A stretch of 64,000 bases of DNA, from contig CAMYVW010000001.1 of the NCBI GenBank assembly GCA_947302655.1, forward strand, positions 186,001-250,000, written 5' to 3'. Made by a program: the position numbers and the translations under genes. Positions 16,832 to 61,238 of the stretch are shown piece by piece. The notes under the pieces were generated by a model that saw only the letters and a list, made by a program, of their open reading frames with translations, did no database searches and was not told the DNA's origin. Within the stretch, counting starts at the first letter, position 1, and every line of letters starts with the position of its first letter. The stretch comes from an uncultured Mycoplasmatota bacterium (GTDB lineage Bacteria; Bacillota_I; Bacilli_A; RF39; UBA660).

Positions 16832-17308
16832 ATGAAAAATAAAAAGGGTTTTACTCTTATTGAACTTTTAGCAGTTATTGTTATAATTGCAGTTACTTCT
16901 GCAATTGCTTCATTTGCAATAAGTAATATATTAAATAAAAATAAAGAAAAAGCTCTTGAAACAAAAGAAAATATAATATTAAAACAAGCTATTCAGTATG
17001 CTAGAGATTATGAAGAAACTTTATTTCATAATTCAAGCAAAATGTATGGTAACTATGTTTGTGAAGTTATAACTATTGGTGATTTAGTAACTGCTGGATA
17101 TGTTAATGAAGATGATAACGATGTTGATGGTGGTCAAAAGGATGTAAGAAATCCTGTAAACGGTCAATCAATGAAAAATAGAAAGATTGTTTTATACATT
17201 AAATCAAGTGAAAATCCAAGTGATATAAATTATAGTACAATTGGTAAATATGTTGGAACAGTTCTTAGTAAATTTGACGTAACTAGTGGAACTAGTTTAT
17301 GTCATTAA
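16832..17308 (+). CDS. Type IV pilin-like (pseudopilin) protein
   Basis: 158 aa. Leader MKNKKGFTLIELLAV predicts cleavage after Gly6 with Glu at mature position 5, followed by a hydrophobic helix to about residue 30. The globular part holds two Cys (in YVCEV and near the C-terminal end, SLCH). It lies 9 nt after engB with SD aaggtgat overlapping the engB stop, and just before der, so it sits inside a ribosome-assembly gene cluster. The globular part resembles the pilin at 50457 (DLVTAGYVN vs DLLANGYLV; a similar NP/DPRD-type segment). Confidence 0.88.
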   Translation: MKNKKGFTLIELLAVIVIIAVTSAIASFAISNILNKNKEKALETKENIILKQAIQYARDYEETLFHNSSKMYGNYVCEVITIGDLVTAGYVNEDDNDVDGGQKDVRNPVNGQSMKNRKIVLYIKSSENPSDINYSTIGKYVGTVLSKFDVTSGTSLCH

Positions 17309-17349: not shown

Positions 17350-18657
17350 ATGAAAAAAACAATATGTATAATAGGTAAACCAAATGTAGGTAAATCTACT
17401 ATCTTTAATCGTTTGATTAAAGATAATAAATCTATTATTATGGATACACCTGGTGTAACAAGAGATCGAATTTATGGAACTTGCACATATAATAATAAAT
17501 CCTTCTTCGTAATTGATACAGGTGGAATTGAAATAGGTCATAGTGACTTTAATGAAGACATTAAAGTTCAAGCACAACTTGCTATTGATGAATCAGATTT
17601 AATTATGTTTGTTGTTGATGGTAAAAATGGTTTAGATGCAAATGACTATTTAATTAAAGATATGTTACTTAAATCAGGTAAGGATGTTCTACTTTTAGTT
17701 AATAAAATAGATAATGAAGGTAGAAAAGAGAATATATATTCATTCTATGAATTGGGTTTTGAAAATATCATTGGTGTAAGTGCTGAACATAATCTTGGTT
17801 TTAGAGAGTTACTTGAGTTTTTAACGAAAAACATCAATGAAAATGAAGAACCAGATGAAGGAATCCCTAAATTTGCAATTATCGGTAGACCTAATGTTGG
17901 TAAAAGTAGTTTAATAAATGCTCTTTTAAATGAAGAAAGAGTTCTAGTTGGTAATGTTGCCGGAACAACTCGTGATGCAGTTGATACAAGATTTACTTAC
18001 AATAATAATGAATACATAGCTATTGATACTGCTGGAATGAGAAAAAAAGGTAAAATATATGAAGATATTGAAAAATATAGTTTGATAAGAAGCTTAAAAG
18101 CTATTGAAAGATCAAATGTATGTGTTGTTGTTATTGATGCATCTGAAGGTATTATTGAACATGATAAACATATTTTAAGTTATGCTGTTGATGCTGGAAA
18201 AGGTATTGTAATATGTGTTAATAAATGGGACACAGTTAAAAATCCTGATCAAGAAATTAAAAAGTGGAAAGAATTAATTAAAAACGATTTACAATTTGTT
18301 CCATATGCTAACGTTGTTTTCTTATCCGCACTAAATAAAAAAAGAATTTATACATTAATGCCTGAAATAATTAATGCATATGAAAATAATAATAAGGAAA
18401 TATCAACATCACTTTTAAATGACGTTATAACTGAAGCTGTAACAATTCATCCAGCTCCTTCATATAAGGGCAAAAGATTAAAAATATATTTTGTAAGTCA
18501 AACTGGTATAAATCCTCCAAAATTTACTTTTAATGTAAATAATAAAGGATTAGTTCATTTTAGTTATGAAAGATATTTAGAAAACCAAATTAGAGAAAAC
18601 TTTGATTTAACAGGAACTCCAATAATTCTTCAATTTAAAAATAAAAGTGATCGATAA
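17350..18657 (+). CDS. der: Ribosome assembly GTPase Der (EngA)
   Basis: 435 aa, double-GTPase required for 50S subunit maturation. First G domain: GKPNVGKS (8-15), DTGGIE, NKID. Second G domain: GRPNVGKS (about 178), DTAGMR, NKWD. The C-terminal KH-like domain ends with TPIILQFKNK. A strong SD (gaaaggagg) precedes the ATG. In Bacillus der begins the der-gpsA-...-spoIVA-hup segment; here gpsA is absent but the spo genes follow. Confidence 0.97.
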   Translation: MKKTICIIGKPNVGKSTIFNRLIKDNKSIIMDTPGVTRDRIYGTCTYNNKSFFVIDTGGIEIGHSDFNEDIKVQAQLAIDESDLIMFVVDGKNGLDANDYLIKDMLLKSGKDVLLLVNKIDNEGRKENIYSFYELGFENIIGVSAEHNLGFRELLEFLTKNINENEEPDEGIPKFAIIGRPNVGKSSLINALLNEERVLVGNVAGTTRDAVDTRFTYNNNEYIAIDTAGMRKKGKIYEDIEKYSLIRSLKAIERSNVCVVVIDASEGIIEHDKHILSYAVDAGKGIVICVNKWDTVKNPDQEIKKWKELIKNDLQFVPYANVVFLSALNKKRIYTLMPEIINAYENNNKEISTSLLNDVITEAVTIHPAPSYKGKRLKIYFVSQTGINPPKFTFNVNNKGLVHFSYERYLENQIRENFDLTGTPIILQFKNKSDR

Positions 18658-18685
18658 AAGTTGTGTTAAAACACAACTTTTTTTA
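18657..18685 (+). terminator. Terminator after der
   Basis: aaagttgtgtt (18657-18667) pairs with aacacaacttt (18670-18680), with a T run after it; the tight loop probably opens the top pair. Confidence 0.8.
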
Positions 18686-18717
18686 ATTTTTATCATAATA
18701 ATAATTAGGTGATTATT

Positions 18718-18960
18718 ATGTCATTAAATGATTCGTTTTTTGAAAAAGTGCAAAAGAAGACTAATGTTGATAAAAATACAATATACACTCTTGCAGAAAA
18801 ATTAAATAATGGAAACATGAAAAATGAAGATACAATTAGAGAAATTATTGATACTTTAAGTAAAATGACAGGAAAGAAAGTATCAAAAGAAACAAGTGAT
18901 AAAATAGTATCTAAAATAAAAAATGATGAGGTTCCAAAAGGTATAGATAAATTTTTTTAA
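18718..18960 (+). CDS. Stage VI sporulation protein F-like (SpoVIF)
   Basis: 80 aa. The pattern FFEKVQKKTNVDKNTIYTLA, then LNNGNMKNEDTIREII and GKKVSKETSDKIV, matches the SpoVIF family (B. subtilis YjcC type), a small protein used in late spore coat/germination steps. No membrane segment. ATG 18718 is chosen because SD aggtgat lies directly before it; an upstream in-frame start would be inside the SD. Position between der and spoIVA, as in several Bacillus-group genomes, supports the call. Confidence 0.8.
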   Translation: MSLNDSFFEKVQKKTNVDKNTIYTLAEKLNNGNMKNEDTIREIIDTLSKMTGKKVSKETSDKIVSKIKNDEVPKGIDKFF

Positions 18961-19010: not shown

Positions 19011-20402
19011 ATGAAGAAAAATGGATTTACTCTAGTTGAATTGCTTGCTGTAATATTAATAATAGGTTTAATATTTCTACTTGCAGTTACAAACGTTATA
19101 CCTATATTTAGAAAATCTAAAACTAAAGGTTTTATTAATGATGCAGTTACTCTAGCGGAAGCTGCAAGAATAAAATATAAAGATGATATATTAAATAACA
19201 TAGATGATGATCTTTTTGCTGGTAATATGGCAGGAAAGAAATGTTATTCAATCCAAGATAATTTAATCGGAACTTATGCGTCAGATTTAAATACAAATTT
19301 AGTTGGTTCGGTTGAAGTTTGTTTTGGAACATCTTGTACATATGAAACAAAAGTATGGCTTACTAATGGTGATATGTATATTGATGGATCTATAATTGAT
19401 GAAAATAATAATAGTACTTCTTTAATTAAAGAAAGTTTTACATCAACAAATACTTCAACTTGTGGAGTTGATTTGGTTACTTCTAATATAATGTATACTT
19501 TTAATGCAACAGGAGCTATTCAATCTTTAACTATTCCAGAAACTGGAACATATAAACTTGAAGTATGGGGTGCTCAAGGAGGAAATGCCAATAAAATTAG
19601 GGGAGGTTATGGAGGATATTCTGTAGGTACAATTTCTCTAAATCAAGGATCGGTTTTATATATTGGTGTTGGAAAACAAGGATCATCAGGACTTTGTAAT
19701 GCTGCTCGACCAGGTGGATATAATGGTGGTGGAAGTGTTCCAAATGCTAATCAGGTTAATAGATATGTTGCTGGAGGAGGCGGTGCAACACATATTGCAT
19801 TAAACTCTAACAGGGGTACATTATCAAATTATTCATCAAATCAATCAGAAGTATTAATAGTTGCTGGAGGAGGCGGTGGAGGATACTATCACAATGCCTC
19901 AACAACAACAAACAAATACTACGGCGAAGGTGGAGATGCTGGAGGATACATTGGTGAAAATGGTGAAGGATTAAAAACCAATAATCTCTATGGTTTAGGT
20001 GGATCTCAAACTCAAGGTGGTTGCGCATATAATACTAATAATTTACAATGTGGTGGCTTTGGCTACGGTGGTGACTGTGGTAGTGGAGTTCACGGATCTG
20101 CTGGAGGTGCCGGATGGTACGGTGGTGGAGGAAGTTCTGGAGTATCAGGTACTGCAAATAGTTCAGGTGCCGGAGGATCTGGATACATCGGAAATGCCAA
20201 CTTAACTAATAAAGCTATGTACTGTTATAACTGCCCTGAAGCTTTAAATCTTCCTATTGATGAAGGAGTGTATACTGTATCAACAACTGGTACATCTAAA
20301 TTTAGAAATACAAGTACTTGTTCAGAAGGATATAGTTCTAAAGCTATAAGTAAATGTGCTAAAGAAAATGATGGCTTTGTTAGAATTACACATGTGTCAT
20401 AA
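19011..20402 (+). CDS. Pseudopilin with ALK/LTK-type glycine-rich domain
   Basis: 463 aa. The leader MKKNGFTLVELLAV predicts prepilin processing after Gly5. Residues 30-135 form a pilin-like globular region with Cys pairs (KKCYSI, VEVCFGTSC) and a VWLTNGDMYIDG strand. From about 160 to the end lies a glycine-rich domain: IPETGTYKLEVWGAQGG, GSVLYIGVGKQG, VAGGGGATHIA, VLIVAGGGGGG, then poly-Gly stretches and a closing DGFVRITHVS. This order matches the Gly_rich (ALK/LTK GRD) family. At least ten Cys in the domain may form disulphides. It is probably surface-exposed. It sits between spoVIF and spoIVA with SD gaaggtga and its own terminator. Confidence 0.82.
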   Translation: MKKNGFTLVELLAVILIIGLIFLLAVTNVIPIFRKSKTKGFINDAVTLAEAARIKYKDDILNNIDDDLFAGNMAGKKCYSIQDNLIGTYASDLNTNLVGSVEVCFGTSCTYETKVWLTNGDMYIDGSIIDENNNSTSLIKESFTSTNTSTCGVDLVTSNIMYTFNATGAIQSLTIPETGTYKLEVWGAQGGNANKIRGGYGGYSVGTISLNQGSVLYIGVGKQGSSGLCNAARPGGYNGGGSVPNANQVNRYVAGGGGATHIALNSNRGTLSNYSSNQSEVLIVAGGGGGGYYHNASTTTNKYYGEGGDAGGYIGENGEGLKTNNLYGLGGSQTQGGCAYNTNNLQCGGFGYGGDCGSGVHGSAGGAGWYGGGGSSGVSGTANSSGAGGSGYIGNANLTNKAMYCYNCPEALNLPIDEGVYTVSTTGTSKFRNTSTCSEGYSSKAISKCAKENDGFVRITHVS

Positions 20403-20413
20403 AAATATATAAT

Positions 20414-20442
20414 AAAACTGTAATCTTTAATTACAGTTTTTT
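20414..20442 (+). terminator. Terminator after glycine-rich pilin gene
   Basis: aaaactgtaat (20414-20424) pairs with attacagtttt (20430-20440), followed by T residues. Confidence 0.85.
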
Positions 20443-20498: not shown

Positions 20499-21977
20499 AT
20501 GCAAAATAAGGATATAATTGAAGCTATTGCTGCTCGTGGTGGAGGAGAGATATATCTTGGTGTAGTTGGCCCAGTTAGATGTGGTAAGTCAACTTTTATT
20601 AAAAAATTTATTGAAAATTTAGTGGTTCCAAATATAGAAGATGAGTTTACAAAGAAGAAATGTCTAGATGAAATCCCACAAACAGCTGAAGGTAAAGCTA
20701 TTATGACAACAGAACCTAAATTTGTTCCATCAAACGGTGCCACAATTTCAATTGATAAATTTGAAACAAATATCAAATTAGTTGATTGTGTTGGTTATGT
20801 TATAAATGATGCAACTGGCTATGAAGATGAAAATAAAAATCCCAGAATGGTTAAAACACCATGGTTTCCTGATTCAATACCTTTTGTTGAAGCAGCAGAA
20901 ATAGGTACACAAAAAGTAATCGAAGATCACGCTACTATAGGTATTGTTATAACAACAGATGGTTCTTTTGGTGAAATAAAAAGAGATTCATATATTGAAG
21001 CTGAAGAAAAAGTAGTAAATGAATTAACAAATATTAATAAGCCATTTATTATTGTATTAAATACAAGAATGCCAAATAGTGATAAAACACTTAAACTAAA
21101 AGATGAATTAGAAGAAAAATATCAAGTTCCTGTACTTCCAATAGACGTTGAAAATATAACTGAAAAAGAAATAATGAGTGTTTTAAAAACTTCACTAGAT
21201 GAATTTCCTGTATTAGATATAGAGTTTAATATGCCTAAATGGATTAGTGCTCTTCCACAAAATAATGATATTAAATTATCCTACATAAGTAGCATAAAAA
21301 ATGTAGTCATTAGTGTTAATAAATTAAAAGATGTTAAAGATGTTATTAGTTATTTTGAGAATAGTGATTATATAAAAGAAGCATATATTAGTGAACTTAA
21401 TCCATCAACAGGTATAATTAAAATTAATATTAATGAAAAAGATAATTTATTCAATGATGTTTTATCAAACATCATTGGTGAAGAAAAAATGACTAGATCT
21501 AGAGTTATTAATATATTTACAACATATAAAGATACTAAAGAAGAGTATGATTCAATTAAAAAAGCTATGGTTATGGCTGATACAACTGGTTATGGTATTT
21601 TATACCCAACTCTTAAAGATATGAAACTTCAAACACCAGAAGTAATTAAACAAGGATCAAGATATGGAGTAAAACTAAAAGCTGTTGCATCAAGTATACA
21701 TTTAATGAAAGTTGATGTTGAATCGACATTTGAACCTATAATCGGAACTGAGTCACAAAGTAAAGAATTAATTGATTACATCATGAAGGATTATGAATCT
21801 AATCCTGATAACATCTGGCATAGTGAAATATTTGGAAGAAGTCTAGATTGCATTGTTCAAGAAGGTATCCAAGCTAAGCTATCTTTAATGCCAGATTCAA
21901 CAAGAAATAAACTATCGCAAACGGTTACAAAAATAGTAAATAAAGGTGCTAATAACTTAATAGCTTTTGTAATCTAG
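20499..21977 (+). CDS. spoIVA: Stage IV sporulation protein A (spore coat ATPase)
   Basis: 492 aa, the same length as B. subtilis SpoIVA, the ATPase that polymerises on the forespore surface and forms the coat basement layer. The Walker A motif GPVRCGKS is at residues 24-31, LVDCVGY and TPWF follow, and the conserved C-terminal stretch (FGRSLDCIVQEGIQAKLSLM) is complete, ending NLIAFVI. All domains appear intact, which argues that sporulation is or recently was functional. SD aaagaggt precedes the ATG. The hup gene follows, as in Bacillus. Confidence 0.97.
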   Translation: MQNKDIIEAIAARGGGEIYLGVVGPVRCGKSTFIKKFIENLVVPNIEDEFTKKKCLDEIPQTAEGKAIMTTEPKFVPSNGATISIDKFETNIKLVDCVGYVINDATGYEDENKNPRMVKTPWFPDSIPFVEAAEIGTQKVIEDHATIGIVITTDGSFGEIKRDSYIEAEEKVVNELTNINKPFIIVLNTRMPNSDKTLKLKDELEEKYQVPVLPIDVENITEKEIMSVLKTSLDEFPVLDIEFNMPKWISALPQNNDIKLSYISSIKNVVISVNKLKDVKDVISYFENSDYIKEAYISELNPSTGIIKININEKDNLFNDVLSNIIGEEKMTRSRVINIFTTYKDTKEEYDSIKKAMVMADTTGYGILYPTLKDMKLQTPEVIKQGSRYGVKLKAVASSIHLMKVDVESTFEPIIGTESQSKELIDYIMKDYESNPDNIWHSEIFGRSLDCIVQEGIQAKLSLMPDSTRNKLSQTVTKIVNKGANNLIAFVI

Positions 21978-50375: not shown

Positions 50376-50404
50376 AAAATGATTTTAAACAAATCATTTT
50401 TTTT
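50374..50404 (+). terminator. Terminator after rpsP-khpA
   Basis: aaaaaatgatt (50374-50384) pairs with aatcatttttt (50392-50402), followed by T residues. Confidence 0.85.
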
Positions 50405-50456
50405 ATTTATTAAAATTAATGTTTATGTATGGTATAATAAATTAAGGTGGTATGAA

Positions 50457-50870
50457 ATGAATAAAAAAGGGTTTACCTTAATTGAACTACTTGCAGTAAT
50501 AATATTAATTTCTGTAATTACATTAATTACAATTCCATCAATCAAATATGCAAGTAGAAAAATTAATGAAAGAAATTATGAAACTAAACTAAAAATGATT
50601 AAAGCATCTGCTGAGGATTATGGTAACGATTATAAAGAAATTATTCAGTATAACTCTTCAGAAACTTATACTAATCCAAGTGATAGTATAGCTTATCCAT
50701 CAGTTACTGTAACTGTTTCTGATTTACTTGCAAATGGATATTTAGTAAAAGATGCCGATATTGCTCAAGATGATATTTTAGATCCACGTGATAAAACTAG
50801 TTTAAAATCAAATTCTATTACTATATATATTAAAAATAACAGTGCATATGCTGTCTTAAATTTTAATTAA
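50457..50870 (+). CDS. Type IV pilin-like (pseudopilin) protein
   Basis: 137 aa. Leader MNKKGFTLIELLAV with cleavage expected after Gly5 and Glu at mature position 5. The globular region carries DYGNDYKEII, DLLANGYLVKDAD and DPRDKTSLKSNSITIYI, similar in layout to the pilin at 16832. No Cys is visible in the mature part. SD aaggtgg is six bases before ATG 50457; the longer upstream frame has no SD. A TATAAT box at about 50433-50438 suggests its own promoter. fmt follows 12 nt downstream. Confidence 0.88.
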   Translation: MNKKGFTLIELLAVIILISVITLITIPSIKYASRKINERNYETKLKMIKASAEDYGNDYKEIIQYNSSETYTNPSDSIAYPSVTVTVSDLLANGYLVKDADIAQDDILDPRDKTSLKSNSITIYIKNNSAYAVLNFN

Positions 50871-60803: not shown

Positions 60804-61238
60804 ATGAAAAAGGGATTAATGTATAAAATAATATCTTGTACTTTTCTTTTAGTATTTATGTATCTTGCTGCATCTTGCTCTATATCAAATGATAAAACTG
60901 AAGACAATGGGATTAAAAAATCTTATGATAACGTTGAAGAAGCCAAAAAAATTTCATTTGCAGATGAAGCTATGGCATTTGTAAGAGCTGCTCAAGAAGC
61001 ATATGTTACATCAGCAGTGGAAGGTGTAGATAAAACATGCTTTACTGTTTCTGAACTTATTGATGGCTTTGTTTCAACTAATAGTCCAGATAAGTACTAT
61101 GGTATAGTTGAAAAGATTTCTGATAACGAATGGAAAATATATGTTAGTAACGGAAAATATTCCATTGATGGTAAAAAATTTCCTTTAAGTAAAAATGATG
61201 TTATTAAATCAAAAGATATTTCGAAAACTAAATGTTAA
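60804..61238 (+). CDS. Lipoprotein with pilin-like globular domain
   Basis: 144 aa. The signal peptide ends in lipobox AASC, so the protein is lipid-anchored outside the membrane through Cys25. The mature part runs AMAFVRAAQEAYVTSA, then KTCFTVSELIDGFV, YYGIVE and WKIYVSNGKYSIDG. This order and spacing resembles the globular half of the pseudopilin at 19011 (KKCYSI, VGSVEV, KVWLTNGDMYIDG). It therefore looks like a pilin head on a lipid anchor in place of the pilin helix. Two Cys (55 residues from the end and the last residue) may pair. SD gtgagg. Confidence 0.72.
   Translation: MKKGLMYKIISCTFLLVFMYLAASCSISNDKTEDNGIKKSYDNVEEAKKISFADEAMAFVRAAQEAYVTSAVEGVDKTCFTVSELIDGFVSTNSPDKYYGIVEKISDNEWKIYVSNGKYSIDGKKFPLSKNDVIKSKDISKTKC

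Follow-up and report, generated by a model that had tools for sequence, protein, structure and literature searches.

A prepilin with a C-terminal ALK/LTK-type glycine-rich domain in an uncultured Mycoplasmatota bacterium, a candidate pilus-displayed adhesin

The DNA analysed here, referred to as the window, is a stretch of 64,000 nucleotides from an uncultured Mycoplasmatota bacterium (assembly GCA_947302655.1, contig CAMYVW010000001.1, positions 186,001 to 250,000), the genome of which amounts to 1.04 Mb in 9 contigs and is ~94% complete. Between spoVIF and spoIVA lies a gene encoding a prepilin that continues into a glycine-rich domain (GRD) of the type known from the animal receptors ALK and LTK. 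The parts of this gene, its neighbours and three further prepilins of the window are collected in Table 1. The gene is surrounded by conserved core genes, and its contig of 509 kb includes both the pilus machine and pilin arrays, which makes contamination an unlikely source.

Table 1. Features of the window that bear on the pilin-GRD gene.
Feature	Position	Strand	Evidence or remark
CDS, modular prepilin with C-terminal ALK/LTK-type GRD	19011..20402	+	463 aa, ATG start
Prepilin leader MKKNG	19011..19025	+	PF07963 and TIGR02532 matches
Pilin module, consisting of a long helix (residues 8-63) and a small beta head (ending at ~residue 118)	19026..19364	+	AlphaFold2 model
Linker, residues 119-157, predicted disordered	19365..19481	+	pLDDT <50
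ALK/LTK-type GRD, residues 161-463	19491..20399	+	PF12810, AlphaFold2, Foldseek to ALK/LTK
Neighbour spoVIF	18709..18960	+	PF14069, 73.3 bits
Neighbour spoIVA	20499..21977	+	TIGR02836, 623 bits
Terminator-like hairpin between der and spoVIF, preceding the pilin gene	18656..18681	+	weak: 1 found vs 0.8 expected in shuffles
AT-rich hairpin, possible terminator, after the pilin gene and before spoIVA	20414..20440	+	weak: by eye, missed by scan
Another prepilin, 140 aa	11794..12216	+	PF07963, 34.4 bits
Another prepilin, 158 aa, between engB and der	16832..17308	+	PF07963, 35.6 bits
Another prepilin, ORF of 163 aa, likely start MNKKGFTLIELL	50379..50870	+	N_methyl at C1:236457-236531

The domain make-up of the protein was evident directly from profile searches. 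The N-terminus matched the N_methyl family PF07963 at residues 2-25 with 23.6 bits against a Pfam cut-off of 21.2 and, also over cut-off, NCBIfam TIGR02532, bearing out the prepilin leader and pilin anchor named in a preliminary description of the gene. All features of a class III leader are present (a short basic leader, glycine at -1, phenylalanine at +1, glutamate at +5 and a hydrophobic helix), and cleavage is predicted from this motif between G5 and F6 (KKNG/FTLVE). The pilin fell below the NCBIfam equivalog cut-offs for the type II secretion pseudopilins GspG (20.2 versus 88.85) and GspH (17.4 versus 80) and for ComGC (24.7 versus 75) and ComGD (20.5 versus 70). A search against PF12810 (ALK_LTK_GRD), which had been proposed as a check on the C-terminal domain, gave a match at residues 177-461 with an E-value of 1.7e-35 and 123.6 bits, well over the Pfam cut-off of 24.5, spanning profile positions 6-242 of 243. 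The same region was matched by PHROG families of unknown function, while no tyrosine kinase domain was found among the Pfam matches of the protein. The domain boundary including the closing strand is nearer to residues 161-463 than to the 160-460 given at first. The protein is best interpreted as a type IV pilin of modular build, in which a pilin module is followed by a disordered linker and a displayed binding module.

The fold of the protein was predicted and compared with known structures. A full-length AlphaFold2 run, for which the alignment of 64 sequences comprised only the window and related loci, returned the helix, beta head and disordered linker of Table 1 and a GRD mostly with pLDDT >90. 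For the GRD alone (residues 159-463), run with 82 sequences, namely the window GRD plus 81 from bacteria and phages, the mean pLDDT was 91.4 and the pTM 0.91. In Foldseek comparisons with the PDB all 21 chains matched with an E-value of 0.001 or lower were ALK or LTK. The best of them reached 1.4e-9 with the full-length model and 4e-9 with the isolated GRD, followed only at 0.2 and 0.03, respectively, by the fibre of the cyanophage Pam3. The superposition on ALK/LTK was loose, with TM-scores of at most 0.48 and RMSDs mostly of 7-14 Å. Since the TM-scores are below 0.5 and the RMSDs this large, the models suggest a topology in agreement with that of ALK/LTK and a detailed geometry that differs. 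A profile of the same 82 GRDs compared with the PDB reached ALK (E-value 2.4e-9) and LTK (1.7e-5) and nothing else. Searching the PDB with the single sequence yielded only leader matches, to geopilin and GspG, indicating that the alignment profile is needed to reach ALK. Many GRD proteins were also found by fold in a library of viral models (best E-value 5e-19), several of them automatically named 'receptor protein-tyrosine kinase', a label that shows how easily the pattern is misread. The assignment of an ALK/LTK-type GRD in the preliminary description therefore stands, resting on PF12810, on the independent profile of bacterial and phage sequences and on the fold; the absence of a Pfam match and the disordered model, named beforehand as outcomes that would speak against it, did not occur.

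Across the 82 aligned GRDs the glycine motifs and the anchor residues Y181, E184, W186, Y237 and N238 are nearly invariant. The loops between the motifs vary strongly, from 5 to 25 residues between Q333 and F350 and from 7 to 21 between G353 and G365. The conserved glycine core may act as a stiff scaffold on which the loops between the glycine runs, variable in both length and sequence, would form a binding surface.

The genome encodes an assembly machine consisting of a prepilin peptidase, an ATPase and a platform protein. At C1:479-483 kb, genes for a PilB-like ATPase and a PilC-like T2SSF protein are found together with that for a prepilin peptidase containing both A24 domains; this PilD is the single type IV leader peptidase of the genome. 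Prepilin leaders number 25. Several of the other prepilins have PF09479 or DUF285 modules, and pilins of ~340 and ~685 aa are encoded in two tandem arrays. An array pilin of the same genome has a pilin module that shares 31% identity over 150 aa with residues 3-152 of the window pilin, and a C-terminal part unrelated to the GRD. Homologous pilin modules joined to different C-terminal modules indicate module swapping on one carrier within one genome.

Additional pilin-related loci were observed in this genome. Just past the end of the window is a tandem array of eight modular pilins (L061, G000:C1:249001-264000), four of 334-357 aa, with PF09479 on the one tested, and four of 680-687 aa, the long module of which has no Pfam family in the part searched; a second pilin array is located at C1:321-336 kb. 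A Tad-like cluster (L062, G000:C2:84001-98000) encodes a TadA-like ATPase identified by profile and probable TadB/TadC- and CpaB-like proteins assigned by eye, and adjoins the gene for a cysteine-rich predicted surface protein of 1243 aa. Within the window, positions 60804-61238 (+) encode a predicted lipoprotein of 144 aa with a signal ending in LAASC. Over 63 aa, the mature part of this protein shares 44% identity with a prepilin head of the same genome (L037), an arrangement corresponding to a pilin head on a lipid anchor.

The preliminary description had called the fusion unusual, which was not borne out by its distribution. Within the order, 84 of 193 genomes, representing 43 of 83 genera, contained PF12810, with up to 14 matches per genome; of ~284 genomes sampled from the phylum outside the family, only one did. 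A scan of a genome collection gave at least 425 GRD relatives; the 80 listed are mainly from gut Bacilli MAGs and include some from Segatella/Prevotella and Lachnospiraceae and one from a spirochaete. Scanning of viral contigs with a GRD alignment as query gave 34 relatives and with the full-length protein none. A weak match to a cyanophage, listed under two accessions, was the only one obtained when annotated phages were searched by tblastn with the GRD. Horizontal transfer from animals was rejected as unsupported, GRDs being present in Bacteroidota, Spirochaetota, Lachnospiraceae and phages.

Sorting of GRD open reading frames by N-terminus identified 23 with a full prepilin leader (21 after removal of duplicates), so that the pilin-GRD architecture, sought in related genomes as the preliminary description had suggested, recurs in ~13 genomes of gut Bacilli; both domains were confirmed with Pfam in the six cases checked. 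In a genome of the same genus (G097), seven GRD pilins are encoded in tandem over ~15 kb (contig 3, 966838-981418; L101 and L113). One of these seven pilins was seen to have two GRDs. In a tree of 124 GRDs, obtained by a quick search with SH-aLRT as the only support, a total of 17 changes in the pilin label is required over 21 rows, and strongly supported branches force at least six of these. These results indicate repeated attachment of the GRD to, or loss from, pilins, gains and losses not being separable in this tree. The closest relatives of the window GRD, in L096 (58% identity) and L064, are on non-pilin anchors, which indicates that the domain is not inherently tied to pili.

Other GRD proteins differ in their anchors. 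A second class (L091/L146, L122, L169, L029, L026 and L135) begins much as a degenerate prepilin leader would, with NKGF followed by a hydrophobic run, and lacks glutamate at position 5. The L091 protein is the same as that of Candidatus Onthousia faecavium (L146), a member of a genus placed in the order RF39 by GTDB. Giant open frames of ~3000-6106 codons with several GRDs each were seen in related genomes (e.g. G091:C17 and G090:C17). Segatella paludivivens (NZ_KB890640.1; L132, L142, L149 and L152), a cultured Bacteroidota species that may be an easier organism for experiments, has clustered genes for numerous GRD paralogues, the N-termini of which resemble those of lipoproteins.

Because an assembly machine is present, the association of pilin and GRD is repeated and the loops are variable on an invariant core, the protein is proposed to be a modular type IV pilin displaying the GRD as an adhesin, with a probability of roughly 0.6. 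Following export, PilD would cut the leader after G5, PilB and PilC would build the long N-terminal helix into the filament, and the rigid TNF-like plus glycine-rich domain would project outward on the flexible linker of ~40 residues, most probably close to the tip of the filament. The ligand would be on the host, a food particle or a neighbouring cell. This adhesin function is suggested by analogy with PilB of Streptococcus sanguinis and with phage tail tips, and the steps from export, cleavage and polymerisation to the tip position are inferred from the features described above. Among the ATPases of the genome (~94% complete) only the PilB-like and TadA-like proteins passed PF00437 in a search for PilT/PilU, and since no PilT-like ATPase was over cut-off, adhesion driven by force is doubtful.

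An unlikely alternative to adhesion is that the GRD serves cohesion, packing on other GRDs or on matrix and thereby bundling pili or clumping cells. Glycine lattices could self-associate, and GRDs are also found many-fold in giant surface proteins, the open frames of which extend to 6106 codons. However, the window genome encodes a single GRD, so that contact between GRDs on the same cell would be limited to copies of this one protein, and variable loops would be expected of diversified binding more than of a surface for uniform packing.

Less probable still is that the protein is a pseudopilin of a type II-like secretion machine, with a GRD at the cell surface that helps in capturing substrates or in gating. 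Although the ATPase and platform protein scored best to the GspE and GspF models, and a PilT-like ATPase over cut-off was missing, no Gsp equivalog cut-off was reached by the machine proteins or, as given above, by the pilin. The 25 prepilins, which carry diverse large modules, are also far above the number known for a secretion pseudopilus.

The position of the gene raised the question of a sporulation-linked surface protein, co-transcribed with spoVIF and acting on the spore or mother cell. The gene begins 50 bp downstream of spoVIF, the terminator-like hairpin precedes spoVIF and spoIVA is the next gene, and a co-transcript with spoVIF is possible. However, among 30 loci of relatives examined der, spoVIF and spoIVA are contiguous in many, a few have other, unrelated genes inserted in this block, and none (0 of 30) has a GRD pilin between spoVIF and spoIVA. 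In G097 the spoIVA match is a fragment inside an implausible open frame of 24,039 codons, probably a masked stretch; no sporulation gene was seen beside the tandem array of GRD pilins in this genome. Since the block is conserved without the pilin gene, the sporulation neighbours are taken to be core genes at an insertion site and their presence incidental. The functional tie to sporulation was therefore rejected, the meaning attached to this neighbourhood in the preliminary description does not hold, and a sporulation-linked role is considered very improbable.

Of the two roles offered in the preliminary description, that of a surface adhesin is plausible, and nothing in the results pointed to a ligand trap. 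Hardly any credence is given to the idea that GRD copies bind or mimic animal ALK ligands. Least probable of all, and rejected, is that a low-complexity glycine-rich stretch merely mimics the GRD profile: the region is glycine-rich and the profile comparison with the PDB carried a large bias term (37 bits), but glycine makes up only 23% of residues 160-463, four residue shuffles and the reversal of this region matched zero Pfam families, from which it follows that glycine content alone does not account for the PF12810 match, the match covers nearly the whole profile, the model is confident, and non-glycine anchors (the five given above together with C405 and C408) are kept in aligned relatives.

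Beyond the single protein, it is tentatively suggested that in this family of small-genome gut Bacilli the TNF-like/glycine-rich fold might be the main diversifying recognition domain, moved repeatedly between pili, other membrane anchors and phage, with the pilus copies forming a strain-specific repertoire of adhesins. The interest of the results is chiefly in the lineage-wide expansion of the GRD and the repeated use on pili of a fold common to phage tips and animal receptors. Present in nearly half of the sampled genomes of these uncultivated gut bacteria of ~1 Mb, the GRD is a strong candidate for an important role in attachment, and as a soluble domain of ~300 residues with a confident model it makes a direct binding screen feasible.

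The proposed adhesin can be compared with several known systems. The TG/GRD region of ALK and LTK (PDB 7nx1, 7lrz and 7lir) belongs to the same Pfam family and provides the only significant fold matches in the PDB; unlike these receptors, the bacterial protein has neither a kinase domain nor a receptor make-up, and the superposition remains at a TM-score of 0.48 or below. Other GRD proteins of gut Bacilli (e.g. L096 and L064/L124) share the GRD subtype of the window protein and have transmembrane or signal-type N-termini instead of a pilin. In phage, gp24 of Pam3 (7yfw/7ypx) has a TNF-like plus glycine-rich tip likened by its authors to C. elegans ALK (PMC9608196), and hypervariable loops protruding from the poly-Gly lattice of gp38 of S16/PP01 recognise OmpC (PMC12892980). 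In these tips the host is recognised by variable loops at the distal end of a glycine-rich lattice (PMC9608196, PMC12892980), an arrangement similar to that proposed for the window protein; their anchor, however, is a tail fibre, and the Pam3 structure is a weak match (E-value 0.03-0.2); gp38 structures were absent among the PDB fold matches listed. The closest parallel in architecture is given by the modular pilins of S. sanguinis, of which PilB is a bimodular pilin adhesin that binds host proteins, and 264 such architectures have been catalogued (PMC8179133). With PF12810 following the pilin module, the window protein fits the definition of a modular pilin given in that work. Literature searches, the coverage of which did not extend to the full architecture list of PMC8179133, returned no report of a pilin-GRD fusion. 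Like PilB (pilin and vWA) and PilC (pilin and lectin) of S. sanguinis, also from a monoderm host, the window protein has a small N-terminal pilin module, a linker and a bulky domain that is not specific to pili (PMC8179133); the grafted module here is an ALK/LTK-type GRD, for which adhesion is the proposed role. The ligand-binding fold of ALK/LTK, the tips with which phage fibres recognise their hosts and the modular pilins of monoderm bacteria, three lines that are usually kept apart, are joined in the window protein.
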